Below, piece by piece: positions 29,092 to 48,979 of a stretch of 64,000 bases of DNA (within the stretch, counting starts at the first letter, position 1; every line of letters starts with the position of its first letter). A model generated the notes under the pieces. That model saw only the letters and a program-made list of their open reading frames with translations. It made no database searches and had not been told where the DNA came from. The position numbers and the translations under genes were made by a program. This stretch comes from Asaia bogorensis (GTDB taxonomy: Bacteria > Pseudomonadota > Alphaproteobacteria > Acetobacterales > Acetobacteraceae), in NCBI GenBank assembly GCA_945868845.1, contig CAMBMS010000001.1, forward strand, positions 1 through 64,000, written 5' to 3'.

Positions 29092-29165
29092 TCATTGTTT
29101 CTAAGTGTTACCCCACAAGACATTGAATGAATGCATTTATTGCGTTGCAGCGTATTAAGCCTAGT

Positions 29166-30686: not shown

Positions 30687-30701
30687 GTGGTCGGTTCCCC
30701 C

Positions 30702-30776
30702 TTCAGGAGCGCCCCTTTCAGGAGCGATGATCGGCGATGCGGATGCGTCCGGCATGGGCATGGGCATGGGCGGGTC
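30702..30776 (-). repeat. short direct repeats upstream of ftsZ
   Basis: TTCAGGAGCG occurs at 30702-30711 and 30717-30726 (15-bp spacing), and GGCATG is repeated three times at 30751-30768. They fill most of the 106-nt gap between ftsA and ftsZ. They could be replication slippage or part of a promoter or leader for ftsZ; there is no direct evidence of function. Confidence 0.4.
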
Positions 30777-30792
30777 GAAGCAACGAAGCGCA

Positions 30793-32100
30793 TCACACCC
30801 TCTCTTTCAGGAAGTTGACGATTCGGCGGAAGAGGCCTTTTGGGTGTTCGGTAATTAAATCCAGCTCATGCAGCACACGCCCATGCCCGGCCGACCAGAG
30901 CAACAGCCCTGCGGCGGTGGCGAAAGCGGGGGTGGAGGCCGAGTCGGGCAGCCCGCGCAGGCCTTGCGGGCGGCCGATACGTACCTGCCGGCCAAGTATC
31001 TGCCCCGCCAGCTCGCGCACCCCCGGCATCTGGCTGGCCCCGCCCGTCAGCACCACGCGCGTGCCGGCCGCGCGCTCCAGTCCGGATTGCTCCAGCTTCT
31101 GCTTCACCAGTTCCAGCGTTTCTTCCAGCCGCGGGCGAATATAGGAGATGACCATGGAGCGCGGCACCTTGGTGATCTGATGCTCGTCCTCGCCGACCTG
31201 CGGCACCGGCAGCAATTCGCGCTCATCGTCCGGGCTGGTCTGGATATTGCCGTAGAGTGTTTTTAACCGTTCCGCGTGCGCGACAGTGGTGGTGAGCATG
31301 CGGGCCAGATCGGTGGTCACGTGGTTACCGCCCATCAGCACCTGCGCGATGTGTTGCAACTGGCCTTCCACATAGACCGCCATACCGGTCGTACCACCGC
31401 CCATGTCGATCACCAGCGCACCAAGATCGCGTTCATCGGGCACCAGGGTGGCCAGGGCAGCGGCATAGGGCGCGGCGACCATCTCGCCGATATCGAGATC
31501 GCAGCGCCCTACGCAAAGGCGCAGATTCTGCACGGCGGTGGCTAACACATCCACTACATGCATGCGCGCGGTCAACATCTGGCAATGCAGGCCGCGCGGG
31601 TCCGGCACGCCTTGCATGTCATCAACGCCGAAGCCAAGCGTGAGCGTGTGCACGATATCGCGCCCCTCCGCCGCCCCGCGCAGCTGGCCTTCGAGGAGCA
31701 GCTTGCGTAGATCGGCTTCCTCGATGGCGCGCCCGTCGATCGGGTACTGCACGTTTACCAACGTGCTGGTCGGGCTGCCGCAGGAGAGATTTACCGTGAC
31801 TTTCGAAAGCCGCGTATCGGCCATGTCCTCGGCTTGCGCGACACAGGCGCGGATGGCGCGCTCGGCTTCATCCAGATCGACGATGGCGCCGCCGCGCACG
31901 CCCCTCCCACGATGCGAGCCGAAACCCAGCACCCGCAGGCTGCCATCGCTTTCCGTGCGCCCGATCAGGCAGGCAATCTTAGTCGAACCGATATCGAGCA
32001 CGCCGAACGGCCCGGTGCGATTGCCGCGCGGGCGGGGCGGTTCGTCCTCGGGTTCCATCGGCGGCGTCAGAATGCGGCGCGAAAGATCGTTCATGCGCAC
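30793..32100 (-). CDS. ftsA: cell division protein FtsA
   Basis: 435 residues, actin fold. Visible features are [18 protein letters not shown] (phosphate 1 loop), VTVNLSCG in the 1C subdomain, [20 protein letters not shown] (phosphate 2) and [17 protein letters not shown] (adenosine motif). The last residues [13 protein letters not shown] form the amphipathic membrane-targeting helix that tethers FtsZ to the membrane. The gene follows ftsQ by 5 nt. About 28 residues of Pro/Arg-rich sequence precede the core, as in several alphaproteobacteria. Confidence 0.96.
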
Positions 32101-32105
32101 GCCTT

Positions 32106-32966
32106 TCAGGTGGGCCGACGCGGCGTAGCGCCGCGGGGCTGGTTGGGGTCGCCAGGCTTCGCGTCTATTTGCGGACGTACGATCAGCCGATCCGGCAGGC
32201 GCAGATCGATCGATTTCAGCGGCCGATCCAGCAAGCCTTGATCCTCATGCAGGCCCACCAGCCGCGCGATGGCGGCATCTTCATGGCCTTCAGGCAGCAT
32301 GATGTCGGCGCCGGTGGCGAGACGCAGGTTCCAGCGCCGCTCACCCACGCGCACGGCGGCGACCATGCGACTAAGCAGGGCTGGATACCGGTTCAGCGTG
32401 TCGAGCAACACGGCAGCCACCCGTGGCGCGCCAGCGCCGACGATCAGTGGCAAGCCCTGCGATTCGGAGAGGTCGCGTTCCATCACCCGCCCGGCGCGGT
32501 CGATCAACATAAATTTACTTTGATACTGCCAGATGGCGAAGGGTTGGCGCTCGGTCAGGCGGATCACCAGCCGATCGGGTAGATGGCGCTCGATGATCAC
32601 CGATTGCACTGAGGCCAGAGATTCGATGCGAGCCTGCATCGCCATCAGGGAAACTGACAAGATAGGCTCGTCGTGCTTTACGCCGATGGCGGCATACAGA
32701 AGCGATTCCGGTGTGTTTACCCGGCCTTCGATATCAACATGGCGCAGGCGCAGTCCGGCATTAGCGATAGTCGCAGTGAGGCGGATTTGCAGTCCCGCTA
32801 GCAGGCTGCCCGGTTCCGCCGTGCGCACGCTGAGCCAGCCGAGTAGCAGCACACTGGCACAGGAGCCGAGGCCGAAAATAAGGCGGGCATGGCAGCGAAT
32901 GCGACGGACCAGAAATTTGAGCCGCCCGGGGCGGTCCTGCACACTCAGCCTCTGGACGGATTTCAT
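32106..32966 (-). CDS. ftsQ: cell division protein FtsQ
   Basis: 286 residues from ATG at 32966, which makes an ATGA overlap with the ddl stop. A basic cytoplasmic start is followed by a single membrane segment ([19 protein letters not shown]), then the POTRA domain ([25 protein letters not shown]) and the FtsQ beta domain ([38 protein letters not shown]). It links FtsB/FtsL to the rest of the divisome. Two further in-frame ATGs upstream would overlap ddl more. Confidence 0.93.
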
Positions 32967-33883
32967 GCGCGGCATGCGGCGTGCTCCACCATCCAGATGC
33001 AGAGCGCGGGGAAATCCATGCCGCAATGCGCCGCCTGTTCGGGCAGCAGCGAGGTGGGTGTCAGGCCCGGCTGCGTGTTGACTTCCAGCAGCACGAGACG
33101 GCCCGGCTCGCCTGCCGTGTCGTCATAACGAAAATCGGCGCGCGAAGCGCCACGGCACCCCAGCGCATGATGTGCGGCGACGGCGACATCCAGCGCGTGG
33201 GTATAGGCATCGGGAGGTACGCGCGCGGGAATAATATGGCGGGAGCCGCCATCGGCGTATTTCGAATCGTAATCGTAGAAGGCGCCAGCCTCGGCGATGA
33301 TTTCGGTGACCGCAAGCGCACGATCGCCCATGACGGCAACGGTAAGCTCGCGGCCGGGGATGTATTCCTCCGCCATGGCATACCGCCCGAAACGCCAGCC
33401 GCGCGCCACGGCGACGCGGCGGTTATCACCGGCGCGGATGATTTCGACGCCGACCGAGGAGCCCTCGTTCACCGGCTTCACCACATACGGCAGCGGCAGC
33501 GGATCGGCGGCTTCGAGATCGGACACATCAACCAGCCTGCCCTTAGCGATCGGCAGGCCCGCAGCGCCGAACACGGCCTTCGCGGCGACCTTGTCCATCG
33601 CGAGGGCTGACGCACGCACTCCAGAATGGGTGTAGGGAATGCCCATCCAATCGAGTACGCCCTGGATGGCACCATCCTCACCGAAGCGGCCATGCAACGC
33701 GTTGAACACGACGTCGGGCCGCGGTGTCAGCGCGCTGATTATGGCACAGAGATCCTCGGTCGCATCAATCGGCAGCACCTCGAACCCGGCCTGACGCAGG
33801 GCAGCGATGACCTGCAGGCCCGATGAGACGGATACGTCGCGTTCGGCGGAGATGCCACCATAGAGAACGGCCACACGGGTCAT
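32963..33883 (-). CDS. ddl: D-alanine--D-alanine ligase
   Basis: 306 residues, ATP-grasp fold. Markers are [46 protein letters not shown] (read in pieces), [35 protein letters not shown] and the C-terminal [20 protein letters not shown] carrying the Mg-binding Glu and Asn. The 'Y' in GIPYTHSGV with no Phe switch fits a D-Ala-D-Ala (not D-Lac) ligase. The length is that of DdlB. It overlaps murB and ftsQ by 4 nt each. Confidence 0.95.
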
Positions 33884-34818
33884 GCCACGACCTCAGGCCT
33901 GCTACCGGGGGTGCCAATGCGGCGTATTTCCCACTCAAGGGACATACCGGTTGCCGCGTGCACGCGGCGACGAACTTCCTCGCCGAGGCCTTCGATATCG
34001 GCGGCGGTGGCGCCGCCCATGTTAATCAGAAAATTGCAGTGCTTTTCGGATACCCGCGCGCCGCCGCGTTGGAGACCCCGGCAACCAGCGGCATCGATCA
34101 GCTCCCACGCTTTCATATTGTCGGGATTGCGGAAAGTGGAACCACCGGTGCGGGCGCGAATCGGTTGGCTGGCCTCGCGCGCGGCGCGGATCTCCACCAT
34201 CCGCGCCGCGATGACGCTGGGCGCGCCCGGCCGGGCGCGCAGCCGGGCGCGCGTGACGATGCAACCCGCAGATAGATGCGCGTGACGATAGGAAAAGGCC
34301 AGATCGGCGGCGGACGCACGCACGCTTTCACCCGATCGCGTTACGATCTCCGCCCAATCCAGAACGGACGCGATATCGCCGCCATAGGCGCCCGCATTCA
34401 TCACGACCGCACCGCCAATGCTGCCCGGAACACCCGACAGGAATTCCAGGCTCGCGAGACCGGCCGCGGCGGCATGTTCCGACACGGTACTATCGAGCGC
34501 GCCGGCGCCGGCGATGATCGCATCAGCCTCCACTACGATGGCGGTGAAGCCACGCGCAAGGCGAATAGTGACACCTTGCAGGCCGCCATCCCGGATGATG
34601 AGGTTCGAGCAGGCGCCGATCACCTCCACCGGAATTTCATGCGGCAGGGCGCGCAGGAATGCGGCCAGATCGCGCACATCGGCAGGCCGCACCAGCACCT
34701 CCGCCGGACCACCGGTGCGGAACCAGGTGAAAGGCGCGAGCGGCGCGTTCGCCTGCGCTCGCCCGCGTAAGGGCGGCAGGCGGTCGATCAGGGCGGCAAT
34801 GCGCGGCGCGGTCATCAT
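33880..34818 (-). CDS. murB: UDP-N-acetylenolpyruvoylglucosamine reductase MurB
   Basis: 312 residues, FAD enzyme of the type II (no Tyr-loop) group. Motifs are [35 protein letters not shown] (FAD binding), [23 protein letters not shown], and [22 protein letters not shown] with the proton-donating Ser; a Glu near EWEIRRIG closes the site. It reduces UDP-GlcNAc-enolpyruvate to UDP-MurNAc. ATG at 34818 overlaps the murC stop by 4 nt; a second ATG directly follows. Confidence 0.95.
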
Positions 34819-36242
34819 GCAACCCGTCCATTGCCGGCTTGCAGCACGGCCAATTCGCCGGGCAACGCAGCCGCCCAGTGGGTGACCGAGCCGGCGCCGA
34901 GGCAGACAACGAAATCGCCCGGCTTGGCGATGGCATGCACCATCTCAGCCAGATGTTCCGGCCCGGCCAACGGCACCACCGAACGATGGCCGCGCGCGCG
35001 CAAGCCATCGACCAGCGCATCGCGATTGACGCCAGATAGGGGGGGTTCGCCAGCAGCGTAGACGTTAGCGACAATCACCGTACCGGCGTCGTTCATACAG
35101 GCGCAGAACTCACTGAACAGCGATTGCAGGCGCGAATAGCGATGCGGTTGCACCACGGCCACCACATCGCGCGCGCCCGCCTGCCGCGCCGCCTTCAGCA
35201 CGGCGGCGATTTCCACCGGATGGTGGCCGTAATCGTCGATGACGGTGATGCCGCCGGCTTCGCCAGTTTTCGTAAAACGGCGCTTGATGCCACGGAAGCC
35301 GGCGAAGGCGCTCTGGATGGTGGGTTCATTGATCTCCATCTCGATCGCCACTGCCACGGCGGCGAGTGCGTTTTGGACATTGTGATTTCCGAGCATCGGC
35401 AGGCGGAACGGGCCCATACGGCGCTCGCGGCCGCGCGCACGATCGGTAACGACGACACGGAACGTCGCGCCCATGCGATCGGTAATCAGATTTTCGACGC
35501 GCACATCCGCCTGAGGGGAAAACCCGTACGTCACAATGCGGTGATCCGATAAGCGTGGAATCATCTGCTGCACTGCCGGATGGTCGATGCAGAGCACGGC
35601 GAAGCCATAGAAGGGAATATTACCGACGAACTGGTCGTAGCCGGCGAGCATCGCTTCCAGCGTCCCCCAATGGTCCAGATGCTCCGGATCCATGTTGGTG
35701 ACGACGGCGATGACGGCAGGTAGGCGCAGGAACGAACCATCGCTCTCATCGGCCTCCACCACCATCCATTCACCGGCACCGAGGCGGGTGTTGGTACCAT
35801 AGGCATTAATAATGCCGCCATTGATGACAGTAGGATCAAGCTGCGCTGCCTCCATTACGGCGGCGATCAGGCTGGTGGTAGTGGTCTTACCATGCGTACC
35901 GCCCACTGCGACGGACCATTTCAGCCGCATTAATTCGGCCAGCATTTCGGCACGGCGGACTACGGGGATCAGCCGCGCGCGCGCCGCCATTACTTCCGGA
36001 TTATCTGTTTTGACAGCGGTAGAGACGATAACAACCTGCGCGTCACCCAGATTTTCTGCCGCGTGGCCGATGGCGACGGCGATGCCGGCGTCATGCAGGC
36101 GACGTACATTAGTGCTATCGGCGATGTCGCTGCCCTGCACCGTGTAGCCGAGATTATGCAGCACCTCGGCGATGCCGGACATGCCAATGCCGCCGATGCC
36201 GACAAAATGCAATGTGCCGATGGAAAGTGGCAGTGCCCTCAT
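34815..36242 (-). CDS. murC: UDP-N-acetylmuramate--L-alanine ligase MurC
   Basis: 475 residues. The Mur ligase pattern is complete: [18 protein letters not shown] (UDP-binding), [15 protein letters not shown] (ATP loop), [45 protein letters not shown], and [20 protein letters not shown] (the DDYAHHP motif, here DDYGHHP). It adds L-Ala to UDP-MurNAc, the first peptide-stem step. ATGA overlap with murG. Confidence 0.96.
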
Positions 36243-37384
36243 CGCCTGCGCGCATCCTGGGGTCGGACATCCTGGGGCCGAGCATCGGGGATCAGTTTTT
36301 CCACTGTATCGGCGAGCCGGGCGGCGGCATTTTCATGAGCCCCGCCACGCGCCGCGCGGGCGGCGAGGATGAGGGAAGCGGGGTCGGTGATTAATTTTTC
36401 TAGCCGGGCGCACAGCGCCTCCGCGGTGAACTGAGACTGCGCCATGACCCAGGCGCCGCCTAGGGCTTCCAGGGTGCGCGCATTGGCAGCCTGGTGGTCA
36501 TCGATGGCATTCGGCAGCGGCACCAAGATGGACGGCCGACCCGCGCTGGCAAGCTCAGCGACGGAAGAAGCACCAGCACGGGCGATGACGAAATGTGCGG
36601 CGCCCAGGCGTTCGGCAATGTCGGTAAAAAACGGTGCCAGATCGGCGACGATGCCACTTGCGTCATAGGCCGCGCGCACGCGCTCCAGATCCTCGGCGCG
36701 GCATTGCTGCGTAACGTGCAGGCGCGCGCGCAGCGCGGGCGGCAGGGCGGCAAGGGCAGGCGGCACGATATCGGAAAACACCCGCGCACCGAGCGAACCG
36801 CCGAGGACAAGCAGGGCAAAACTCTCCCCCGGCGGCGTATAGGCGCGCGTGGCGAGGGCGCCGATGGCGGCGCGGACAGGCAGGCCCGTGACCTCGGCGC
36901 GGACACCCGGTGGCAGGCGCGCGGTGTCGGGGAAATTCAGCGCCAGAATATCGGCGTGGCGTGCCAAAAACCTGTTAGCACGGCCGAGGACAGCATTTTG
37001 TTCATGCAGGACCACCACCGCGCGGCGACGCAGCAGGCGTGTGGCGAGGACGGGGGCGACGGAAGGATAGCCGCCAAAGCCGATCACCGCGCTGGCGTTG
37101 ATCAGCGCCAGAATGCGCCGCGCCTGCAAGGTACCCGCGACCAACGCGGCGGCAGCCTTAGCGGCTTGCACCGGGCCACGCCCAGCGATGCCCGCCCCCT
37201 TGATGATGAAACGCTCGGCATGGCTGAAGACGGCGAAGTTTTCCTGGGCGGTGCGCGAGTCCGTCATCAACGCCACGCGCTGGCCGCGCGCGAGCAATTC
37301 GCTGGCCAGCGCCTCAGCAGGAAAGAAATGCCCGCCCGTGCCACCGGCAGCGATTACGATCGGATTCACGATTGGAGCTCTCAT
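36239..37384 (-). CDS. murG: UDP-GlcNAc transferase MurG
   Basis: 381 residues, GT-B fold, membrane-associated on the cytoplasmic side. Motifs are [71 protein letters not shown] and the donor-binding [22 protein letters not shown] with DDHQAANA. It converts lipid I to lipid II. Overlaps ftsW and murC by 4 nt. Confidence 0.95.
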
Positions 37385-38532
37385 GGCATGCTATCTGAGC
37401 GGCGGCCCCAGGCAATCCCCGCGCCATGGCGGCGCCGCGTGAGGGCCAGAAACATCCCCATGCCACAAGCCACCGCGAGCACAGACGAACCGCCATAGGA
37501 AATAAACGGCAGGGTCATGCCCTTGGTTGGCAACAGGCCCATGGTGGAGCCCATATTGATGAACGCCTGCAGGCCGAAGCCGGTGACAAGGCCGCCAGCG
37601 GCGAGGATGACGAATAGATCTTGTTCCTTCAGCAGCCGGATCAGACCACGAAGCACGATGAAGGCGAACAGTGCGACGATGACGCCGCAGACGATCAGAC
37701 CGAATTCCTCCCCTGTCACGGCAAACACGAAATCGGCATGCGCGTCGGGCAGCACGTCCTTCACCCGGCCTTCGCCAGGACCGCGGCCCGCGAGGCCGCC
37801 GGCGCCAAAAGCCTGTTTGGCGCGGATGACCTGATAATGCTCGGCGCTGCTCCAGCTAAGGAACGGGTCGATGCGGTCACGCACATGCTTGAAGATAAAA
37901 TAAGCGGCGACCCCGGCCGCCGCGATCAGCGCGCCGAGCGCGCCGACGATGAACAGATTGACCCCCGCGATAAAGACCTGGGCAAAAAAAACCATGGCGA
38001 TCACCGCGAGCATACCGATATCGGGTTGCAGTTTCAGCACGCCAACGATCAGTCCGACGAGGATAATGGCGATCGGCCAGCCATAAAATCCCGGCTGGCG
38101 GCGCTGTTCGCTGATCAGCCAGGCGGCGGTGACGGCAAAGAACGGCTTCAGAAACTCACTGGGCTGCAACGACAGACCCGGCAGGGAAATCCAGCGGCTG
38201 GCGCCCTTGATCTGCACACCCACCACCAGAGTTGCGATGGTGAGCAGCAGCGCGCCGGCACAGCCGAGCACGGCCAGGCGACGCACGCCGCGCAGGCTCA
38301 GCAGGGAGATGGCGATGGTCAGCACCCCTGCGGCGGCGAGGAAGATCACCTGCTTGAAGATGAAGATGTCCCTCGACTGGCCAATATGCTCCGCCACCGC
38401 GGGGCTGGCGGCGAGCATCATGACATAGCCGAAGCAGATCAGGGTGAAGATGGCGAACAGCGTCCAGCGGTCGACGGTCCAGAACCAGCGACCAAGGGCG
38501 GAGGTGTCGGCACGGCTGCGCAGCGTGCTCAT
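37381..38532 (-). CDS. ftsW: SEDS glycosyltransferase FtsW
   Basis: 383 residues with about ten membrane segments. SEDS signatures are SLQPSEFLKPFFAVTAAWL, KLQPDIGMLAVIAMVFFAQ, the large periplasmic loop with DAHADFVFAVTGEEFGLI (the catalytic Asp region is in WSSAEHYQVIRAKQAFG and KDVLPDAHADF), INMGSTMGLLPTKGMTLPFISYGGSS (read in pieces). It polymerises septal peptidoglycan from lipid II with FtsI. Overlaps murD by 4 nt. Confidence 0.95.
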   Translation of the reverse strand: MSTLRSRADTSALGRWFWTVDRWTLFAIFTLICFGYVMMLAASPAVAEHIGQSRDIFIFKQVIFLAAAGVLTIAISLLSLRGVRRLAVLGCAGALLLTIATLVVGVQIKGASRWISLPGLSLQPSEFLKPFFAVTAAWLISEQRRQPGFYGWPIAIILVGLIVGVLKLQPDIGMLAVIAMVFFAQVFIAGVNLFIVGALGALIAAAGVAAYFIFKHVRDRIDPFLSWSSAEHYQVIRAKQAFGAGGLAGRGPGEGRVKDVLPDAHADFVFAVTGEEFGLIVCGVIVALFAFIVLRGLIRLLKEQDLFVILAAGGLVTGFGLQAFINMGSTMGLLPTKGMTLPFISYGGSSVLAVACGMGMFLALTRRRHGAGIAWGRRSDSMP

Positions 38533-39902
38533 ACCGCTTGCCCCAATCGGGCGGCAAGGGCGGCAAAGCGGTCGCCACGGGCATCGAAGCCGGTGAACTG
38601 GTCGAAGCTGGCGCAGGCGGGGGAGAGCAAGACCACGCGCACACCAGCCGCGCGGGCAGCGGCAGCGGCAGCGGGTACGGCCGCATCCAGGCTTCCGGCG
38701 ATCGTGTGTGGCACACCATGCGCGGCCAGGGTGGCCGCCAGCACGGGCGCATCCTGGCCGATCAGGAACGCGTGGGCGATACGTGCGAAATAGGAAGCGA
38801 GGGCGTCGATACCACCCTCCTTCGACATGCCGCCGGCAATCCAGATCAACCGTCCATAGCAGCCCAGGGCACGGCCAGCAGCATCGGCGTTGGTGGCCTT
38901 GCTGTCATTGACAAACACCACGCCATCGCGTTCCGCCACCAGCTGCTGGCGATGCGGCAGGCCCGGATACGTGGGTATGTGGCGGACGATGTCGGCGCGC
39001 GCGAGGCCGAGCGAACGGGCCAGGGCCATGACGGCGGCAGTGTTTTGCGCATTGTGCGCGCCCGGCAGGGTTGGGCAGGTGACAAGATCGATGCTCGGTC
39101 CATCCACGTCGCGCAGAATGGCGCCGTCGGCCCAGATTTGCGCTGGCTGGAAGCCCGAAATGGTGATGGCAGTGCCCGGCTGAGTGGCCCGCCAGGCCGC
39201 CATCTCGCGCGCGAGCGGATCGTCGATGCCTACAACGGCGGTGTCCGCTTCGGTCTGGCGGGTAAAAATCTCACGTTTAGCCAGGGCATAGAACGCCATG
39301 TTGCCATGCCGATCAAGATGATCGGGGCTCAGATTCAACAACGCCGCACTATCGAATCGCACTGTGATCAGCCGCTCCAGCATGTAGGAGGACATTTCCA
39401 GCACATACACACCGTGGTCGGGCAAGAGCGGTAATGCGAGGGCGGCTGTTCCCAGGTTTCCGCCGGCCGCGCTGGGCACACCGGATGCCGCCAGGATATG
39501 GGCCAGAAGGGCGGTGGTGGTGGATTTACCGTTGGTGCCGGTGATGCCAACGAAACGAGCTTTCGAACCCGCGCAGCGGACCGCGGTGAACAAGATCTCA
39601 ACGTCGGAGACGATAGGGACATCGTTGGCGCGCGCCCAGGCCGCGGCGGGGTGGATGCGCGGGCGGAGATGCGGAATGCCGGGTGAGAGGATCATGGCGC
39701 GGGGCCGGCGCGTCATTTCCGTCGGGTTGGTAATAGTTATTTTTTCCCGCATGGCGGCCGCGCGGGCGGTTTCCGCATCGTCCCAGGCCATGACATCGGC
39801 GCCCATGGCCGCCAGTGCACGCGCGACGGGAAGTCCATTGCGGCCGAGACCGACAACGGCAAAAGAGTCTCCGGCAAAAAGGCTGGCGGGAAATGCCCTC
39901 AT
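38529..39902 (-). CDS. murD: UDP-N-acetylmuramoylalanine--D-glutamate ligase MurD
   Basis: 457 residues. FAVVGLGRNGLPVARALAAM is the UDP-binding start, FVGITGTNGKSTTTALLAHIL the ATP loop, EMSSYMLERL and LNLSPDHLDRHGNMAFYALAK the central motifs, and VNDSKATNADAAGRALGCY the C-terminal one. It adds D-Glu. Overlaps mraY and ftsW by 4 nt. Confidence 0.95.
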   Translation of the reverse strand: MRAFPASLFAGDSFAVVGLGRNGLPVARALAAMGADVMAWDDAETARAAAMREKITITNPTEMTRRPRAMILSPGIPHLRPRIHPAAAWARANDVPIVSDVEILFTAVRCAGSKARFVGITGTNGKSTTTALLAHILAASGVPSAAGGNLGTAALALPLLPDHGVYVLEMSSYMLERLITVRFDSAALLNLSPDHLDRHGNMAFYALAKREIFTRQTEADTAVVGIDDPLAREMAAWRATQPGTAITISGFQPAQIWADGAILRDVDGPSIDLVTCPTLPGAHNAQNTAAVMALARSLGLARADIVRHIPTYPGLPHRQQLVAERDGVVFVNDSKATNADAAGRALGCYGRLIWIAGGMSKEGGIDALASYFARIAHAFLIGQDAPVLAATLAAHGVPHTIAGSLDAAVPAAAAAARAAGVRVVLLSPACASFDQFTGFDARGDRFAALAARLGQAV

Positions 39903-40987
39903 CGGATTTTCAGGGTGGCGAGGCCAGCAAGCGCCAGGATCATCGAAATGATCCAGAAACGGATCACGATGGTGGGTTCGGCCCAGCCTTTCTTCTCAAA
40001 ATGATGGTGCAGCGGCGCCATCAGCAACACGCGTCGGCCGGTGCGCTTAAACCAAAACACCTGGATGATGACAGAGATGGTTTCCACCACGAACAGCCCG
40101 CCCACGATCATCAGGACAATCTCGTGCTTTGTCGCCACCGCCACCGCGCCGAGGGCACCGCCCAGGGCGAGCGATCCGGTATCGCCCATGAACACCGCCG
40201 CCGGCGGCGCGTTGAACCAGAGAAAACCCAGCCCCGCGCCGATCAGGGCGGAGGCAAAGACACACAATTCCCCGACGCCGGGAACAGCGTGTAGCTGCAG
40301 ATAATCGGAAAAAATGCGGTTGCCGACGAGGTAGGCTATGAAAGCGAACACGCCTGCGGCGATGATAGTGGGAACAATGGCGAGGCCGTCCAGCCCATCC
40401 GTCAAGTTAACGCCATTGGAGCTGCCCATCAGTACGATCAGGGCGAAGAACGGAAATGCAAAGCCGAGCGGGATTAGAATTTCCTTGAACACTGGCACGG
40501 CGAGGCCCGTGGCGATGGGAGCAGGCATCAGGCGCATCAACCAGAAGGCGCCGACTAGGCCAACCGCAGTCTGGCCAAGCAATTTCCAACGCCACGACAG
40601 ACCTTTCGAATTACGCCTCGTCAGTTTTAGAAAATCATCGACGAAGCCCAGAGCGCCGTAGCCGAAAGTAATGAACAAAGCCGCCCAGACAAAGCCATTG
40701 CGTAGATCCGCCCAAAGCAAAGTCGAAACGCCGAGAGCCAGGAGAATCATGACACCGCCCATAGTGGGCGTGCCCTTCTTCTCGATCAAATGGCGTTCCG
40801 GCCCGTCATCGCGGATCGGTTGCCCCTCGCCCTGCATCGATTTCAGTTTGCGGATGATTATCGGGCCGAACACGAAGGCAACTAGCAAGGCCGTCAGGCA
40901 GGCTGCCCCCGATCGGAAGGTGATGTAGCGGAACAAGTTGAACAGGGCGAACTGGTCCGCGAAGGAGCGAAAAGTCGTGAGCAGCAT
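39899..40987 (-). CDS. mraY: phospho-MurNAc-pentapeptide transferase MraY
   Basis: 362 residues, ten membrane segments. Motifs are KKGTPTMGGVMILLAL, FGYGALGFVDDFLKLTRRNSKGL (catalytic Asp-Asp), SSNGVNLTDGLDGLAI (catalytic Asp and Mg binding), FMGDTGSLALGGALGAVAV, and PLHHHFEKKGWAEP (the HHH loop). It makes lipid I from UDP-MurNAc-pentapeptide and undecaprenyl phosphate. The start overlaps the murF stop by one base (TAATG). Confidence 0.97.
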   Translation of the reverse strand: MLLTTFRSFADQFALFNLFRYITFRSGAACLTALLVAFVFGPIIIRKLKSMQGEGQPIRDDGPERHLIEKKGTPTMGGVMILLALGVSTLLWADLRNGFVWAALFITFGYGALGFVDDFLKLTRRNSKGLSWRWKLLGQTAVGLVGAFWLMRLMPAPIATGLAVPVFKEILIPLGFAFPFFALIVLMGSSNGVNLTDGLDGLAIVPTIIAAGVFAFIAYLVGNRIFSDYLQLHAVPGVGELCVFASALIGAGLGFLWFNAPPAAVFMGDTGSLALGGALGAVAVATKHEIVLMIVGGLFVVETISVIIQVFWFKRTGRRVLLMAPLHHHFEKKGWAEPTIVIRFWIISMILALAGLATLKIR

Positions 40988-42369
40988 TACGGTTTCTCCG
41001 GCCCAGCTTGGTCCAACGCGGCGACAATACGCTGCATGCGGTTGCCGAGGCTGCCTTTGACGAGGACGACATCGCCCGGCCCGACGGTGCGTACGACAAT
41101 AAGGGCGAGGGACGCAGATTCGTCAGCATGCGCCCCGCGCTGGGGGGCGGGAATGGCGTTATGCAGCAGGCCCATCAAAGGACCGCAGGTGAAGACCAGA
41201 TCCGCGCTGGCCGCCAGATCGGCAGCAAGTGCGAGATGCTCTGCAGGGCCCGCCTCGCCCAGTTCCAGCATGTCGCCCAGCACGGCAATGCGCTTCTTCC
41301 CGGGTTGCAGACGCAACACAGCGAAGGCGGCGCGCACGGACGGCGCTGAGGCGTTGTAGCTTTCATCGATTAGCAGGGCCTCTCCGCCCTGCACCGCAAT
41401 AATCCGCCGTGTGCCGCGCCCACTGACCGGGGCGAAGCCCACCAGCGCCTGTGCGCCCCGGACCGGATCAACGCCGAGCGCGGTCGCGGCGGTCAGCGCG
41501 GCCAGTGCGTTCATCGCCATGTGCCGTCCGGGTGCGGCGAGACGGGTGGACACTTCGATGCCGCCAATATCGGCGGTGAGAATCGTTGCCTCAGCCTCCG
41601 TGACGACATCGCACAAGCGGGTATCGGCATCGCGCGTGGCGCCGAATGTGATGACGGGATGGCCGGCCGCGGCTACGCGCAGTTGCGGAAACTGAACGGA
41701 ATCCGCCGGCAGAACGATCGGCCCGTCCGGTTCCAGACCGCACGCAATGGTTGCTTTTTCCTCGGCGATCGCTTCGATACTGCCAAGATGGCCGATATGG
41801 GTTTTCTCCACATTGGTGATCAACGCCACATGCGGGCGCGCCAGCTTCGTGAGTGGCGCAATTTCCCCGGCATGGTTCATGCCGATCTCGATAACGCACC
41901 AAGCAGTATCTTCGGGCAGGCGCGCGAGTGTGAGCGGCACGCCCCAATGATTGTTGAACGAGGCTTCCGCCGCATGCGTCCGGCCCTGCGCGCCAAGGAT
42001 AGCACGCAGCATTTCCTTCGTCGTGGTCTTGCCAACGCTGCCAGTGATGGCGACGAGCTTCCCTGCGAAACGTTGCCGCGCAAAGGCAGCAAGGCGATTC
42101 AGCGCGGCTAACGTATTATCGACCGCCAGCACCGGGGCGGCGCGCGAGAGACCGACAATATGGTGATGGAGCATCACACCTGCCGCGCCGCGCGTCAGGG
42201 CTTCAACGGCGAAATCATGCCCATCACGATTTTCACCAATCAAGGCGATAAAAAGGTCGCCTGGCCTGATCTGGCGTGTGTCAATGCAGAGCCCGGTGGC
42301 GCTAAATGGGGTCGGCATGATGCCGCCCGTAGCGTCGGTGAGTTCGTCAGCGGTCCAGAGCGCGGTCAT
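40987..42369 (-). CDS. murF: UDP-MurNAc-tripeptide--D-Ala-D-Ala ligase MurF
   Basis: 460 residues. FSATGLCIDTRQIRPGDLFIAL is the N-terminal substrate domain, VAITGSVGKTTTKEMLRAIL the ATP loop, SFNNHWGVPLTLARLP and VIEIGMNHAGEIAPLTKLARP family motifs (read in pieces), and LIDESYNASAPSVRAAFAVL the C-terminal domain. It adds D-Ala-D-Ala, the product of the ddl gene in this cluster. Overlaps murE by 4 nt. Confidence 0.96.
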   Translation of the reverse strand: MTALWTADELTDATGGIMPTPFSATGLCIDTRQIRPGDLFIALIGENRDGHDFAVEALTRGAAGVMLHHHIVGLSRAAPVLAVDNTLAALNRLAAFARQRFAGKLVAITGSVGKTTTKEMLRAILGAQGRTHAAEASFNNHWGVPLTLARLPEDTAWCVIEIGMNHAGEIAPLTKLARPHVALITNVEKTHIGHLGSIEAIAEEKATIACGLEPDGPIVLPADSVQFPQLRVAAAGHPVITFGATRDADTRLCDVVTEAEATILTADIGGIEVSTRLAAPGRHMAMNALAALTAATALGVDPVRGAQALVGFAPVSGRGTRRIIAVQGGEALLIDESYNASAPSVRAAFAVLRLQPGKKRIAVLGDMLELGEAGPAEHLALAADLAASADLVFTCGPLMGLLHNAIPAPQRGAHADESASLALIVVRTVGPGDVVLVKGSLGNRMQRIVAALDQAGPEKP

Positions 42370-43829
42370 AGCGCGCGGTCCGTTAATCGGCCGGCAAGAC
42401 GGCGGACGATATCAATATCGTCGAATGGCAGGATGTCGAGGCCGATGATCTGGCCCTGTTCATGGCCTTTTCCTGCGACAGCCAGAATGTCGCCGGGCCC
42501 GAGCAAGTTAAGACCAGCGGCGATGGCGTTCGCGCGGTCGGCGATTTCGGTGGCATCGGGACAGGCGGAACGGATGGCGGAGCGGATGGTGGCAGGGTTT
42601 TCGGTGCGCGGGTTGTCATCGGTGATGATGACATGATCGGCACCGCGGGCTGCACTGGCGCCCATTAGAGGCCTCTTGCCGTGATCGCGATCGCCCCCGG
42701 CGCCAAAGACGATAATTAATTTACCCCGCACGTGCGGACGTAGCGCCGCGAGCAGGCGATCCAGCGCATCGGGCGTATGCGCGTAATCCACATAGACAGC
42801 GGCGTCGTTGGACAGGATCGCCGCACGTTCCATCCGACCCCGTACGCCCACGAGGTGCGGCAGAAAATTAAGAGCATGGGTAGTACCGGTGGCCTCCGCC
42901 AATGCGGCGGCGACCAACGCGTTGTCGGTCTGGAAACGGCCAAGCAAGGGCAGGTCGATGGTATGTACCCGGCCATGGGCGAAGACGCGCAGGCTCTGCC
43001 CGCCGGGATGGGGCGTGGCGCGCATCAGACCGATGGTCTCCCCGGCCATGCCGACGCTGCGCAGATCGAGCCGGCGGGCCTGGGCGATGGTGCGCAGCGC
43101 ACGCAGGGTTTCGCCATCCATGTCGGCATTCACCACCACCGGGGCGCCAGCGGGCAGCAGGTCGGTAAACAGGCGCAATTTGGCGGCGCGATAGGCCGGC
43201 AAGGTGCGGTGATAATCCAGATGGTCACGCGTGAGATTGGTGAAACCACCGGCTTTCAACTGGACACCGTCCAGGCGGAACTGGTCCAGGCCATGCGACG
43301 ACGCCTCCAGCGCCACATGGCCAATTTTCGCCTTTACCAGGGCGGCAAGGGTGCCGGCCAGAGCCACCGGATCGGGCGTAGTGAGTCCGGGACTAGAGGC
43401 GAAGCCCGGCGCGTCGAGGCCCAAAGTCCCAAGACTGGCGCTTTTTATCCCCGATAAAGCCCAAAGTTGGCGCAGGAAGCTGACCGTGCTGGTCTTGCCG
43501 TTGGTGCCGGTGACGGCGACGGTCATCGCTGGCTGGGGTCCTGCCATGGCGGTGGCGAGCTGGGCCAGGCAGCGGCGCGGCTCCACGGCAGTCAGCAATA
43601 GGCGGCGGGGCGTCGCGGGGGGCCAGGAGGTACCGAGCGGAGCCAGGATAGCGCTGGCGCCTCTGGCAACGGCTTCAGCGATGAAGGTGCGGCCATCGTG
43701 ATGCGCGCCGGGCAGGGCGGCGAACAGGAAACCGGGCGCGACGGCGCGGCTGTCGGCGGTGATGCCGGTGATGCCAGTATCCTCACCATCTCGCCACGCC
43801 ACATCCGGGGCGGGATGCAGATGGCCCAT
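42366..43829 (-). CDS. murE: UDP-MurNAc-L-Ala-D-Glu--meso-DAP ligase MurE
   Basis: 487 residues from MGHLHPAPDV (ATG at 43829), 4 nt after the ftsI stop; the in-frame extension to 44015 runs inside ftsI and is not family-like. Motifs are TADSRAVAPGFLFAALPG, AVTGTNGKTSTVSFLRQL, TTPDPVALAGTLAAL, FTNLTRDHLDYH, and IITDDNPRTENP. The DNPR motif indicates meso-diaminopimelate rather than lysine as the third residue. This predicts DAP-type peptidoglycan. Confidence 0.95.
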   Translation of the reverse strand: MGHLHPAPDVAWRDGEDTGITGITADSRAVAPGFLFAALPGAHHDGRTFIAEAVARGASAILAPLGTSWPPATPRRLLLTAVEPRRCLAQLATAMAGPQPAMTVAVTGTNGKTSTVSFLRQLWALSGIKSASLGTLGLDAPGFASSPGLTTPDPVALAGTLAALVKAKIGHVALEASSHGLDQFRLDGVQLKAGGFTNLTRDHLDYHRTLPAYRAAKLRLFTDLLPAGAPVVVNADMDGETLRALRTIAQARRLDLRSVGMAGETIGLMRATPHPGGQSLRVFAHGRVHTIDLPLLGRFQTDNALVAAALAEATGTTHALNFLPHLVGVRGRMERAAILSNDAAVYVDYAHTPDALDRLLAALRPHVRGKLIIVFGAGGDRDHGKRPLMGASAARGADHVIITDDNPRTENPATIRSAIRSACPDATEIADRANAIAAGLNLLGPGDILAVAGKGHEQGQIIGLDILPFDDIDIVRRLAGRLTDRAL

Positions 43830-43833
43830 CAGC

Positions 43834-46083
43834 TCATCGATCCGTGTTGAGTGCGGGCACAAAGGACGGAGCGGTATATTGGGCGGCGAGCAGCGCGGAA
43901 GAAGATGGCCCGCTGGCTTCATGGCGTGGATCGCGCGCGGGAGCCCGCCCCGGCGAATTAGCCAGCGGTAGCGCCGGGGCGAGCGCGGGCACGGACGGGG
44001 CGACGTTGCGCGCATCCGCCGGACGGGGATTGGCCAAGCGGGAATCAGCCGATCGGGAATCGGCAGGTCGGGAATCGGCAGGTCGGGCCATCTGCGCCGG
44101 CGGGGTGGGACGGGCAGCAGTGGCGGGCGGCGGGCGGGTGGGCTTCACCGGCGCCGGCGCGACGGCGACAGGGGGGGAGCGCAGGGCGTTGGGCGGGCGC
44201 GCCGGTTGCAAGGGAATGGCGAGCGCCGTGTTGATCTGCGCCGTGTTGGCGAGTTCCGGCAGCATACCCAGCATCGGACCGATGCGCGCGATGGTGCGCC
44301 CCGCCGCCGGCGCGATCACCCAGCCGGCAGTGGCATAGCCATAGGTGGACGCATTCGCCTTCGGCTCATCAAGCATCATGTATACGGTGTAGCGCGGCGC
44401 ATGCATCGGAAACACAGAGGTAAATACCGCGACATTAGCCTTTTTCTGGTAGCCGCCTCGGCCGGTTTTTTCCGCCGTTCCGGTCTTACCGCCGGGATAA
44501 TAGCCGGCGACTTCCGCGGTCTTGCCGAAGCCATCAGTGACGATCAGGCGCATCAACTTGCGCATCGTGTCCGATGTTGCTTGCTGCATGACACGCTCGG
44601 AATCTGGCGGGCTGGTGCCAGGATCCATCGCCAGCAAGGTTGGACGCACCTTAATACCGTTATTGGCGATTGCGGCGGTGCCGCGCGCGACATGCAAGGG
44701 CGAGACCGAAATACCATGGCCGAAGGCAACCGTCAGGGTAACGATCTCCTTCCAGGCCTGCGCGCTTTGGACGATGGGCAGCGCCGCTTCGGGCAGTTCC
44801 ACGGCGATGCGATTGAGCATACCCATATTGCGCATCCATGCCCGCTGGCGCTCCGCACCAACCGTCTGCGCCACATGCGCGGCACCAATATTGGACGAAT
44901 AGGCGAGCACTTCCGGCAAGTAAAGCCAGCGCTTCTTCCCCTCGAAATCAGAGATGGTGAAACGACCAATCTTGATCGGAGCGGAGGCATTAAATTCATT
45001 CCAGAGCTGCGTGGTGCCATAATCCAGCGCCATCGAGGCTGTTTGCAGCTTGAAGGTAGAACCCGGTTCATACATACCGGTGACGGCACGGTTAAAGCGT
45101 TCCTCATTGGTGGCCCGTCCGACCTGATTGGCATCGTAATCGGGCAGACTTACCATGGCGATGATCTCACCGGTCCGCACATCCATCACGATGCCGCAGC
45201 CGCCAATGGCACGAAAGGTTTCCATCGCCTTCGTCAGTTCATCACGCACCACGGCCTGTACGCGCACATCGATGGAAAGCCGCATCGGTGTGTTGTCGTC
45301 GGCCAGACGACGGTCGAAGAAACGTTCGATGCCCGCTACGCCACGGCCATCGACATCCACGCCGCCCAACACTTGCGCGGCGGCGCGGCCCATCGGATAG
45401 CGGCGGCGTTCGGTATGTTCGAAGTTAACTCCAGGAATACCCAGCGCGTTAACCTGCAGTACCTCGCGCGGGGTTATCTGGCGGGCCAGATAGACAAATT
45501 GCTTGTCCGATTCTGATAGCTTGGCGCGGATCTGCGCTTCGTCAAAGCGGGGCAGCGCCGCCTTGAGCCGGCGCGCGGCCTCCCGCGCATCCGTCAGCTC
45601 CTGCGGATTAGCGTAGAGCGCGGCGGTGGGCAGAGAAATGGCGAGGATTTCGTTATTGCGATCGGTGATCATGGCGCGCGGCCCGCGAGGCACGACGGCC
45701 GGCAATTCGGGATCGCGTGGTTCCGGCAGATTAAAGATCGCCGTGGTCGGGCGATCCCCAGGCGCGGGGATGCGCGGGGCGATCACGGTGACCCAGGACA
45801 GCCGCCCGACCACCACCAGGAACAATAGGGCGAAGACGCTGGAGGCAACGACCAGCCTTCCATGCGTCCGGTTCAGCGCATGGCGCCGATCAAGATCTGG
45901 GCGGGTGAGGCGCACCGTCTCCACAAGCGGCACCGCATCGGCGGCAGACGCGCCGAGGCGTCGGGCCGGCGCGTTCGACGGACGACTATCGGGCGAGGGC
46001 GGCGAGCGCGGGATATCGGCCCATCCGTGCGGGTCGTCTCCTGCTGTGTTCCGTGATGGCGGGTCCGACGGGGGGGCGGACAT
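43834..46083 (-). CDS. ftsI: septal peptidoglycan transpeptidase FtsI (PBP3) with long Pro/Ala-rich tail
   Basis: 749 residues against a usual 550-620. Residues 1-75 are a Pro/Ser/Arg-rich cytoplasmic part, and a membrane anchor follows (about 76-98). The PBP dimer domain reads AMITDRNNEILAIS onward. The transpeptidase has the SxxK motif in EPGSTFK (S342-K345), the SxN motif in YSSN (396-398) and KTG in GGKTGTAEK (533-535). From about 625 to 749 the protein is almost all Pro, Ala, Arg and Ser, including ADSR repeats. It cross-links septal peptidoglycan with FtsW. A 3-nt gap separates it from ftsL. Confidence 0.95.
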   Translation of the reverse strand: MSAPPSDPPSRNTAGDDPHGWADIPRSPPSPDSRPSNAPARRLGASAADAVPLVETVRLTRPDLDRRHALNRTHGRLVVASSVFALLFLVVVGRLSWVTVIAPRIPAPGDRPTTAIFNLPEPRDPELPAVVPRGPRAMITDRNNEILAISLPTAALYANPQELTDAREAARRLKAALPRFDEAQIRAKLSESDKQFVYLARQITPREVLQVNALGIPGVNFEHTERRRYPMGRAAAQVLGGVDVDGRGVAGIERFFDRRLADDNTPMRLSIDVRVQAVVRDELTKAMETFRAIGGCGIVMDVRTGEIIAMVSLPDYDANQVGRATNEERFNRAVTGMYEPGSTFKLQTASMALDYGTTQLWNEFNASAPIKIGRFTISDFEGKKRWLYLPEVLAYSSNIGAAHVAQTVGAERQRAWMRNMGMLNRIAVELPEAALPIVQSAQAWKEIVTLTVAFGHGISVSPLHVARGTAAIANNGIKVRPTLLAMDPGTSPPDSERVMQQATSDTMRKLMRLIVTDGFGKTAEVAGYYPGGKTGTAEKTGRGGYQKKANVAVFTSVFPMHAPRYTVYMMLDEPKANASTYGYATAGWVIAPAAGRTIARIGPMLGMLPELANTAQINTALAIPLQPARPPNALRSPPVAVAPAPVKPTRPPPATAARPTPPAQMARPADSRPADSRSADSRLANPRPADARNVAPSVPALAPALPLANSPGRAPARDPRHEASGPSSSALLAAQYTAPSFVPALNTDR
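44040..44084 (-). repeat. 15-bp tandem repeat inside ftsI
   Basis: Three 15-bp units of the type GGGAATCGGCAGGTC (plus strand): 44040-44054 (two or three changes), 44055-44069 and 44070-44084 (identical). They encode the RPADS / RSADS units of the FtsI tail. The unit is a multiple of three, so slippage changes tail length without a frameshift. Confidence 0.8.
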
Positions 46084-46086
46084 GGC

Positions 46087-46755
46087 TCAATTGCCCCGAA
46101 TGAATTGGATGTCTCCGCGCCCAACAGCCTGGCCCGAGACCGAGATCGGCGGCGGCGCGAGACCGCGCGCCATGCCAAGCGCTGAGGCAGTGATCACCGG
46201 GGCCAGCGGGATGGGTTGGGATACAGGGGAAGGGGAAACGGGTTGTGGCGCGACCGGCGGCGTGGACGGGCGGATGTCGGACGTCCTCGTCCGGATTACT
46301 GGCGGTGATTGCGGCGCGGACTGGCGCGTCATCTGTGCGGGCGGCGGTTGTGGGCGCGCGGGCCCGAGGGGCGGGGCCAGCGGCACGGGGATCTCGGCCA
46401 CGGGCTCCCCTGCGTCGCTGGCGGGTTCCTCGGTGATGGCATCCGGCGGTGGCAACGCGGGTAGGGCGCGCGCGGCGGGCAGGCGCGCGGACAGGTCTGC
46501 CAGGGTGGTAAATTGCTTCGGTGTGACCGTGTTCAGCTGCAAGAACTGCCCGGCGAGTTCGGCCAGCCGCTCTGGGTCGTTCATCAAGGTCCATTCGGCG
46601 CGCAACACACCGGTACGCTCACGCGTTGCGTCAATGGCGCGACTGGTCTGACTGATGGCGCGGTCCAGCAGCCGCGTCTGGTATTTCACGTGGTAGAGAT
46701 ACAAACCAGCCACAGCGGCGACACCAGCGCAGATCACGGTGCTGAGGCGGATCAT
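46087..46755 (-). CDS. ftsL: FtsL-like cell division protein with extended tail
   Basis: 222 residues from ATG at 46755 (ATGA overlap with rsmH); usual FtsL proteins are 90-130. The N-terminal part fits FtsL: one membrane segment [20 protein letters not shown], then a coiled-coil-like periplasmic region [20 protein letters not shown] and [18 protein letters not shown], ending in [12 protein letters not shown]. Residues ~90-222 are Pro/Ala/Val-rich and unordered-looking. The call rests on this core plus position between rsmH and ftsI. It scaffolds FtsQ/FtsB and activates FtsWI. Confidence 0.85.
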
Positions 46756-47702
46756 GCCGCGCCCCCCGCATCGCCAATGCACTCCAAGGCGCGCAGCCGG
46801 GCGCTGCGGGCACGCGGATTAACGTGGGTTTCCGCTGTCGTGGGACGCAGGGCCTTTGCGGTCAGCAAATGAAAGCGCGCCGCTTGGCGGGGGGCCAGGC
46901 CGCGCGGATCGTGGCGCGAAGGCGCCGGGCTGCGTCCGGAAGCATGCGACATGAAACGTTTGACGATGCGGTCTTCCAGCGAATGAAAGCAGACCACAAC
47001 GAGGCGACCGCCCGGCTTGAGTAATCGCGCCGCCTGTTCGAGCCCGCGGGTGATTTCCTCCAGTTCGTCGTTCACATAGATGCGCAACGCCTGGAAGCTG
47101 CGCGTGGCGGGGTCGATGCCGGAACCGTCTTTCGGCACCACGGCGCGAACGATTTCTGCCAGCTGCAACGTGGTAACGATCGGTGTCTCGATGCGCGCGG
47201 TGACGATGGCGCGGGCGATACGGCGCGAGAGGCGTTCCTCGCCGAATTCGTATAGGATATTAGCCAGCTCGCGTTCGCCAAGCGCGTTGACGATATCGGC
47301 GGCGGAAGAGCCTATCCGTTCCATACGCATGTCCAGCGGGCCATCGGCGCGGAAAGAAAAGCCGCGCTCGGCCTCGTCTAGTTGAAAGGACGACACGCCG
47401 AGATCGAGCACCACGCCATCCAACGCATGGATGCCGGCCTGTGCCAGCAGGTTCAACATGTCACCGAAGCGACCATGGACGAGATAGAGTTTTTCGGGAT
47501 AACGCGCAGCCAGGGCGGCGCCACGCGCGATGGCGGCGGAATCGCGATCGATGGCGTAAAGCGTGCAGGGTGCCGCGGTTAGAATCGCCTGCGCGTAACC
47601 ACCCCCACCAAATGTGCCGTCCAGATAGGTTGTACCCGCCTGTGGCGCGAGTTGCGCCAGTACTTCGGCGAGCATGACGGGGATGTGGCCCTGGCTATTC
47701 AC
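46752..47702 (-). CDS. rsmH: 16S rRNA (cytosine-1402-N4) methyltransferase RsmH
   Basis: 316 residues. [13 protein letters not shown] opens the protein; [17 protein letters not shown] is SAM motif [24 protein letters not shown] (read in pieces) and PLDMRM are family signatures, followed by [15 protein letters not shown] and [17 protein letters not shown] (catalytic region). It methylates C1402 of 16S rRNA. Overlaps mraZ by 4 nt. Confidence 0.96.
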
Positions 47703-48258: not shown

Positions 48259-48293
48259 TGGGACAATATGGGATAACATGGGATAACATGGGA
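48259..48293 (-). promoter_or_regulatory. MraZ-box operator array at the dcw promoter
   Basis: Four TGGGA direct repeats on the plus strand at 48259, 48269, 48279 and 48289, each separated by five bases (CAATA, TAACA, TAACA), give an exact 10-bp period. E. coli MraZ is known to bind TGGGN repeats with 5-nt spacers upstream of mraZ. Here a TTGACC -35-like hexamer (minus strand, 48299-48294) and a TGTTAT -10-like hexamer (48278-48273) flank or overlap the boxes with 15-bp spacing, so binding should occlude the promoter. The promoter part is weaker than the repeat array. Confidence 0.75.
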
Positions 48294-48552
48294 GGTCAAA
48301 GAGAATCGCTGGGAACAAAACGAGATTCGACAACATTTTTTGGTCGCGGATCAATGGATTGTTGACGTTTTTCCTGTTGCGGTGGGGGCCCTGCGTGATT
48401 CTACGTTAATAACAGCATGAAGATACAAGAGAAAACGGTTTGCTCCGAAGCTTGGCACCCGTCCGCGCTCCCACCTGACCATGCACAGCATTGTAAGCTC
48501 GTTGGGTGATCGGGTGGGGGCGCGGGCTGGTGCAGGACTTCGCACAAAAAAA

Positions 48553-48979
48553 TACCAGACGGCCTGTAAGCCGGGTTCTGTCCCTGTCCTTTCGGGCAGG
48601 GGACGACCATTCCTCTGGGACGCGCCTTACGGCGCGCCTCACGCGACCTACCCGGGCGGCGGGGCGGAAATGCCCCTGCGGCACCCTCCCGGCTTGCGCC
48701 GGGTTGGCCCGCCGGCCACCCCTATTCGGTCTTGCTCCCGGTGGGGTTTGCCCTGCCGCCCCTGTTGCCAGGGGCGCGGTGCGCTCTTGCCGCACCGTTT
48801 CGCCCTTGCCGGCGGGGAACTGGGGTCCTTGCACCGGCGGTTTGTTTTCTGTGGCACTATCCCTGGGGTCGCCCCCGCCGGCCGTTAGCCGGCACCGCAT
48901 CTCCGTGGAGCCCGGACTTTCCTCCAGCAGTGTGGGGAAACCCCGCGCCGCCAGCGGTCGTCCGGCCGTCTGGCTCTCG
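48553..48979 (-). ncRNA. rnpB: RNase P RNA, bacterial type A
   Basis: Read on the minus strand, the 5' end GAGAGCCAGACGGCCGG pairs with the 3' end GGCCGTCTGGTA to form helix P1. The conserved core AGGAAAGTCCGGGCTCC lies at 48923-48907, and the 3' conserved region ends AACCCGGCTTACAGGCC. The overall length of about 427 nt is right for an alphaproteobacterial type A molecule. A run of seven T follows the 3' end on the minus strand (about 48552-48546), likely a terminator. RNase P matures the 5' ends of tRNAs. Open frames across this region are not genes. Confidence 0.95.

Follow-up and report, generated by a model that had tools for sequence, protein, structure and literature searches.

Eraso et al. 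(2014) reportedly described an operator of Escherichia coli MraZ upstream of mraZ. This operator is cited in the available portions of PMC7761207 and PMC8475190. The E. coli K-12 sequence upstream of mraZ reads TGGGAaattgTGGGGcaaagTGGGA and holds three boxes on the mraZ strand, which are located after the -10 element according to the available portion of PMC7761207. The same portion reports that PmraBc, the mraZ promoter region of Burkholderia cenocepacia, carries four 7-nt repeats with 3-nt spacers and a 10-bp period, downstream of the -10 and over the start site, that MraZ shifts a fragment carrying these repeats, and that MraZ is ring-shaped. Mycoplasma genitalium MraZ is represented by entries with promoter DNA (PDB 9r4j, 9sz7 '4 box promoter', as far as the accessible records go), and the Mollicute box is given as AAAGTG[T/G] (PMC8475190, in part). 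For Staphylococcus aureus, the accessible part of PMC11796246 describes G tracts near the mraZ promoter and interprets them as a G-quadruplex (G4) situated downstream of that promoter rather than as boxes for MraZ.

Box array and genes at the Asaia bogorensis mraZ locus

In the window (the whole 64,000-nucleotide stretch of A. bogorensis DNA analyzed here), TGGGA occurs four times in exact 10-bp phase upstream of mraZ, with the 5-nt spacers CAATA, TAACA and TAACA (Table 1). The decamers of boxes 2 and 3 are identical (TGGGATAACA), and the distance from box 1 to the mraZ ATG is 125 nt. The sequence-only reading, which had placed four exactly spaced TGGGA copies about 126 nt upstream of mraZ and on the opposite strand, is thus borne out; the strand is the main point of the finding. 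The pair TGGGANNNNNTGGGA (TGGGAN5TGGGA) is expected 0.08 times in the window and occurs 3 times, each time within the array. For the looser pair TGGGN6TGGG, the window count does not exceed chance expectation (5 matches vs 3.1 expected; 19 of 100 shuffles reach 5), so the unusual feature is the phased row. Among 2000 dinucleotide shuffles of the 417-bp region between mraZ and rnpB, four TGGG at 10 bp never appeared, three appeared once, and no 4-mer of any kind appeared four times at this spacing. It is very unlikely that the row arose by chance. A fifth TGGGA is present at 48310-48314, 21 bp past box 4 and off the exact phase.

Table 1. Coordinates of the array, the predicted promoter and the surrounding genes in the window
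Feature	Position	Strand	Placement or content	Basis
Putative MraZ box 1 (TGGGA)	48259..48263	+	at predicted transcription start	sequence
Putative MraZ box 2 (TGGGA)	48269..48273	+	overlaps -10 element	sequence
Putative MraZ box 3 (TGGGA)	48279..48283	+	within -35/-10 spacer	sequence
Putative MraZ box 4 (TGGGA)	48289..48293	+	abuts -35, downstream side	sequence
-35 element TTGACC of mraZ promoter (predicted)	48294..48299	-		conserved TTGAC-17/18 bp-TGnTATnCC
-10 element TATCCC (predicted)	48270..48275	-	TGT at 48276-48278 makes extended -10	
mraZ, 144 aa	47699..48133	-		PF02381 E=2.4e-16, alignment, predicted fold
Rest of dcw cluster, presumed target unit	28090..47702	-	rsmH, ftsL-position ORF, ftsI, murE, murF, mraY, murD, ftsW, murG, murC, murB, ddl, ftsQ, ftsA, ftsZ, lpxC	
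rnpB, RNase P RNA class A	48551..48973	-	next gene upstream of mraZ, same direction	RF00010, 274.7 bits

Two properties were taken as marks of an MraZ operator: upstream of mraZ, three or more TGGGN boxes separated by 5-nt spacers, and, in the same genome, a cognate MraZ that has both DxxxR motifs. The window has four such boxes, and its MraZ is intact and keeps both motifs in the alignment, as DAKGR and DKEGR. The predicted model of the protein (mean pLDDT 82, from a 5-sequence alignment) matches solved MraZ structures with a best E of 4e-11, and these include, according to the accessible record, M. genitalium MraZ with the 4-box promoter. From mraZ to lpxC there are 17 ORFs on the minus strand, 16 of them with a family match, and the 17-gene dcw unit claimed earlier stands as a gene count. 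The ftsI and ftsW matches fall below the NCBIfam equivalog cut-offs, murE is named from Mur-ligase domains plus position, and the ORF at the ftsL position (46087-46782, minus strand) has no Pfam match at E 0.01. Transcription reading in from rnpB could bypass the proposed MraZ control. The sole terminator-like site found on that strand is at the 3' end of rnpB, with 1.2 such sites expected by chance.

The array resembles the E. coli operator in its TGGGN boxes, its 5-nt spacers and its place upstream of an mraZ that heads the dcw cluster. However, the E. coli boxes are on the mraZ strand after the -10 (PMC7761207, available portion), whereas the window boxes are on the other strand, inside the predicted -35 to +1 interval. 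The E. coli arrangement was therefore not found in the window; we regard the mraZ strand and a place past the -10 as features of the E. coli form rather than as requirements for an MraZ operator. Four repeats with a 10-bp period at the mraZ promoter are shared with PmraBc, although there the repeats are reported downstream of the -10 and here they are inside the predicted promoter. The M. genitalium entries, as far as accessible, resemble the window in combining the MraZ fold with four boxes in one promoter, but the Mollicute box comes from a distant lineage and differs from TGGGA. G tracts near the mraZ promoter are common to the window and S. aureus.

With regard to a wider MraZ regulon, the only perfect matches to the 14-bp box pair in the A. 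bogorensis genome are two that overlap, both in the array. Allowing one mismatch adds two sites and allowing two adds 43, one of them inside the array, which gives 47 sites at up to 2 mismatches vs 20 for the reversed pattern. Contig 8 (L003) also carries three TGGG in phase, a count equal to that of the control.

Conservation in Acetobacteraceae and joint absence with mraZ

Relatives of A. bogorensis had been proposed as the place to look for the same phased repeats, and the outcome was strongly positive: 102 of the 136 family upstreams have an opposite-strand array, and a conserved promoter is interlocked with the array. Of the 150 Acetobacteraceae genomes, 136 have MraZ, and the upstream DNA of all 136 was examined, four upstreams shorter than 300 nt (G091, G012, G051 and G081) being counted as such. 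In these 102 upstreams, at least three of four slots are TGGG at 10 bp opposite mraZ (shuffle mean 0.1), and in 54 all four slots are. Phased TGGG arrays on the mraZ strand were found in 0 of 136 and other spacings from 6 to 15 in 0-2 of 136. The distance between the start codon and the start of the array is 13 to 208 nt, with a median of 99. Pairs at spacing 15 (74/136 upstreams with two slots) were rejected as a separate signal: they follow from the 10-bp row through its 30-bp harmonic, and there are 3 true 15-bp pairs. In four titled records (L004-L007), 4, 4, 4 and 3 phased TGG stand opposite mraZ, and the mraZ strand has no more than 2. Across genera, the box core and its phase are constant and the spacers diverge.

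The remaining 34 upstreams have no array as scored. By a tally made without shuffle control, GGG is phased three or more times in 24 of them and at most twice in the other 10; in the 24, C or A replaces some of the T, and many are mixed CGGG/TGGG. Four genomes (G089, G119, G149 and G080; L172, L131, L141 and L122) carry a GTGGGG box on the mraZ strand beside opposite-strand TGGG boxes. It is possible that these mixed-polarity promoters are intermediates of a strand switch.

The motif TGGGATANCATGGG has 95 sites in 90 of the 150 family genomes, and 87 of these sites (85 genomes) lie no more than 500 bp upstream of mraZ; every one of the 87 is on the opposite strand. The other 8 are away from mraZ (for example, G006:C158:52174); they may be further MraZ targets or due to chance. 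Among the 14 family genomes with no mraZ match, TGGGATANCATGGG was found in none, although most of these are drafts in which the region itself may be missing.

The joint absence with mraZ was also checked through rsmH in 13 hand-picked genomes with no MraZ match. Two of them, G009 and G052, have no rsmH and were dropped, and in 9 of the 11 left MraZ is absent from both the cluster and the whole genome by profile search at E 1e-3; weak profile matches in this set are 0.009 in G318 and 0.6 in G312. Three phased boxes around rsmH, on either strand, were found in 0 of these 9 genomes, a raw count from hand-picked genomes that ignores shared descent. The other 2 of the 11 do have MraZ: G161, and G192, where the Pfam search had missed the protein and the inverted array is present. 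The array is thus conserved at mraZ (102/136) and absent where mraZ is absent (no array in 9/9). In one mraZ-less relative, G013, TGGG recurs at 10-bp intervals within a perfect 20-bp minisatellite (30.8 copies, 100% identical; L324 814-1429, that is G013:C1, ~2639313-2639928). The ORFs flanking it are presumably glyS-like and infC-like, as judged from their translations.

The array also co-varies with the type of MraZ loop. In 13 family genomes, the first DxxxR loop of MraZ is longer by one residue (for example, DAKKGR in G112, G024 and G063), and the TGGG array is present in 2 of these 13 genomes vs 100 of the 123 others (Fisher 3e-6, ignoring descent). In 11 of the 13, three or more GGG follow one another in phase, some preceded by C and others by T. 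Mixed CGGG/TGGG runs are also found in 12 of the 23 array-less family genomes with an ordinary MraZ loop. The co-variation of loop and box may represent a single clade.

Strand and promoter across Alphaproteobacteria and other Pseudomonadota

Among 142 alphaproteobacterial genomes, 117 have a Pfam MraZ match, 115 of them outside the family. The 110 class upstreams comprise the top 90 of the score list (two near contig ends were skipped), G299, and 19 of the remaining 25, which represent the lower end of the list; 6 class genomes are outside the sample, and one upstream (L253) of only 25 nt was counted as such. At least three of four phased TGG opposite mraZ are found in 83/91 and 13/19, that is 96 of 110 upstreams outside the family, and phased TGG on the mraZ strand in 0 of 110. 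The full TGGG is phased opposite mraZ in 68/91 and 10/19, and 14 of the 110 have no array as scored. One member of the class with a divergent MraZ, G161, has a GTG/TGG array with a 10-bp period on the mraZ strand, as in E. coli (L302, ~800-860).

The other Pseudomonadota are represented by 27 of 28 genomes with MraZ, in 13 families, one family accounting for 12 genomes. Here phased TGG is on the mraZ strand in 24/27 and opposite in 2/27, and the mraZ-strand array is found in 11 of the 13 families. The full TGGG passes in only 4/27 and GTGG in 18/27, so the box differs at its edges. In 21 of the 27 upstreams, the first box is 18 (6 upstreams), 28 (5) or 37-43 nt (10) past the start of TTGAC. 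These boxes therefore also keep a register to the -35, on the other strand. In L268, the array precedes the TTGAC and may itself be due to chance. An unguided scan of all 4-mers at spacings 5 to 15 ranks CCCA (TGGG on the opposite strand) at 10 bp first in the family, CCAT and then CCCA at 10 bp in the class, and mraZ-strand GTGG at 10 bp first elsewhere. Altogether, the boxes of the sampled alphaproteobacteria are nearly always on the strand opposite to that used in E. coli.

The same upstreams share a promoter-like pattern. TTGAC-17/18 bp-TGnTATnCC occurs in 66/136 family and 58/91 class upstreams and in 0 of the 27 upstreams of other Pseudomonadota, with a shuffle mean of 0. Of the 19 additional class upstreams, 9 have it. 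With TTGAC and TGnTATnCC required and the remaining positions free, the anchored mraZ-strand consensus of the 17-bp sets is (T/A)TTGACnCCCATnnnnnCCCATGnTATCCCAt. In the window, the predicted -35 and -10 are 18 bp apart, with TGT ahead of the -10. Of the 54 four-box family arrays, 45 carry TAT in the middle spacer, and each of the remaining two spacers has it in 5; in 35 four-box class arrays, where the row often starts ahead of the -35, it is in spacer 2 in 19, in spacer 3 in 13, and never in spacer 1. This spacer preference suggests that TAT is a promoter element rather than part of the repeat. A generic sigma-70 scan at its own threshold gives no promoter at the array, and the -10 TATCCC matches 3 of the 6 consensus bases. 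The -35/-10-like pair that had been seen to overlap the boxes thus holds on comparative grounds, with the generic scan negative.

The predicted promoter would place the mraZ transcription start near 48263, with a leader of ~130 nt. The available part of PMC5089854 reports mraZ 5' leaders of at most 70 nt in most non-Rhodobacteraceae, including Caulobacter, 170 nt in Sinorhizobium meliloti, and no separate start near mraZ in Rhodobacter sphaeroides. These published starts neither confirm nor refute the predicted leader.

A putative MraZ operator embedded in the promoter

We consider the four boxes to be an operator through which MraZ would act on its own promoter and hence on the dcw cluster as well; we put the probability of this reading at roughly 0.87. 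The sequence-only reading had called the array a likely MraZ operator, a view now largely supported by the conservation in family and class, by the interlocked promoter and by the joint absence with mraZ. Judged from sequence comparison, MraZ would bind the boxes and repress transcription. The boxes, on the strand opposite mraZ, and the predicted promoter share one 10-bp lattice: the -35 TTGAC abuts box 4, box 3 falls within the -35/-10 spacer, the extended -10 (TGnTAT) occupies a spacer with its final bases in box 2, and box 1 is at the expected start. At the boxes, the MraZ ring may contact a single face of the DNA, as the accessible record of PDB 9sz7 suggests, and bound MraZ would then keep RNA polymerase off, so that mraZ and the genes downstream of it would be under negative feedback.

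A different possibility is that the array is chiefly a DNA structure: its four GGG runs, which lie on the template strand and are separated by 7-nt loops, would fold into a G-quadruplex and in this way hinder mraZ transcription. The window sequence GGG-N7-GGG-N7-GGG-N7-GGG fits the usual G4 motif, and a G4 in the mraZ promoter region of S. aureus was reported and tested (PMC11796246, accessible part). The canonical motif spans 64/108 family and 45/96 class arrays, but it is missing from the other 44 and 51, and 68 of the 362 phased boxes in the class are TGG with no third G. Moreover, a G4 needs no exact 10-bp phase, no T ahead of the runs and no mraZ, whereas the array is absent where mraZ is absent. 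The G4 was therefore set aside as the conserved entity and main reading, and we regard this explanation as unlikely, although G4 formation may be a secondary property of the array.

The DnaA box contains TTATCC. The mraZ-strand repeat in the window, TGTTATCCCAT, has this core in common with it, and a CtrA motif is reported upstream of S. meliloti mraZ (PMC3616915, in the part available); the boxes might thus bind another regulator such as DnaA or CtrA, MraZ being incidental. However, the base before TAT varies (n in TGnTAT has <0.4 bit in three of four anchored sets and 0.6-0.8 in the fourth), so TTATCC is not conserved. The box core instead matches the TGGGN boxes of E. coli, and the array is missing together with mraZ, which makes such a regulator quite improbable. 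A recent, functionless duplication of the decamer, for which the identical decamers of boxes 2 and 3 and the TGGG period of the G013 minisatellite might speak, can practically be dismissed because core and phase are kept across genera despite spacer divergence and 87 of 95 sites are upstream of mraZ; a tandem-duplication artefact was likewise set aside on account of conservation.

Returning to the MraZ operator, a more specific scenario can be put forward tentatively, and we hold it to be somewhat short of an even chance. The alphaproteobacterial operator may have been flipped and moved into the core promoter early, so that one lattice would serve both the sigma factor and the MraZ ring; MraZ would then compete directly for the -35 and -10 rather than block just past the -10, and the box sequence would co-evolve with the N-terminal DxxxR loop. 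The mixed boxes in 12 of the 23 ordinary-loop, array-less genomes lower the odds of this scenario.

In the open-licence PMC literature, we found no description of alphaproteobacterial MraZ boxes or of the inverted strand, and no binding, footprint, start-site or expression report for an alphaproteobacterial MraZ box; the descriptions of MraZ operators found there come from E. coli, Burkholderia and Mollicutes only. The array probably represents a class-wide, strand-inverted, promoter-embedded form of the known autoregulatory MraZ operator. MraZ is a widespread regulator heading the division and cell-wall cluster, and a class-wide flipped form fused to the promoter would offer ready targets in tractable alphaproteobacteria. 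Such a form suggests that MraZ boxes can function in both orientations with respect to transcription, and comparing the two geometries makes the mode of repression by the MraZ ring testable.
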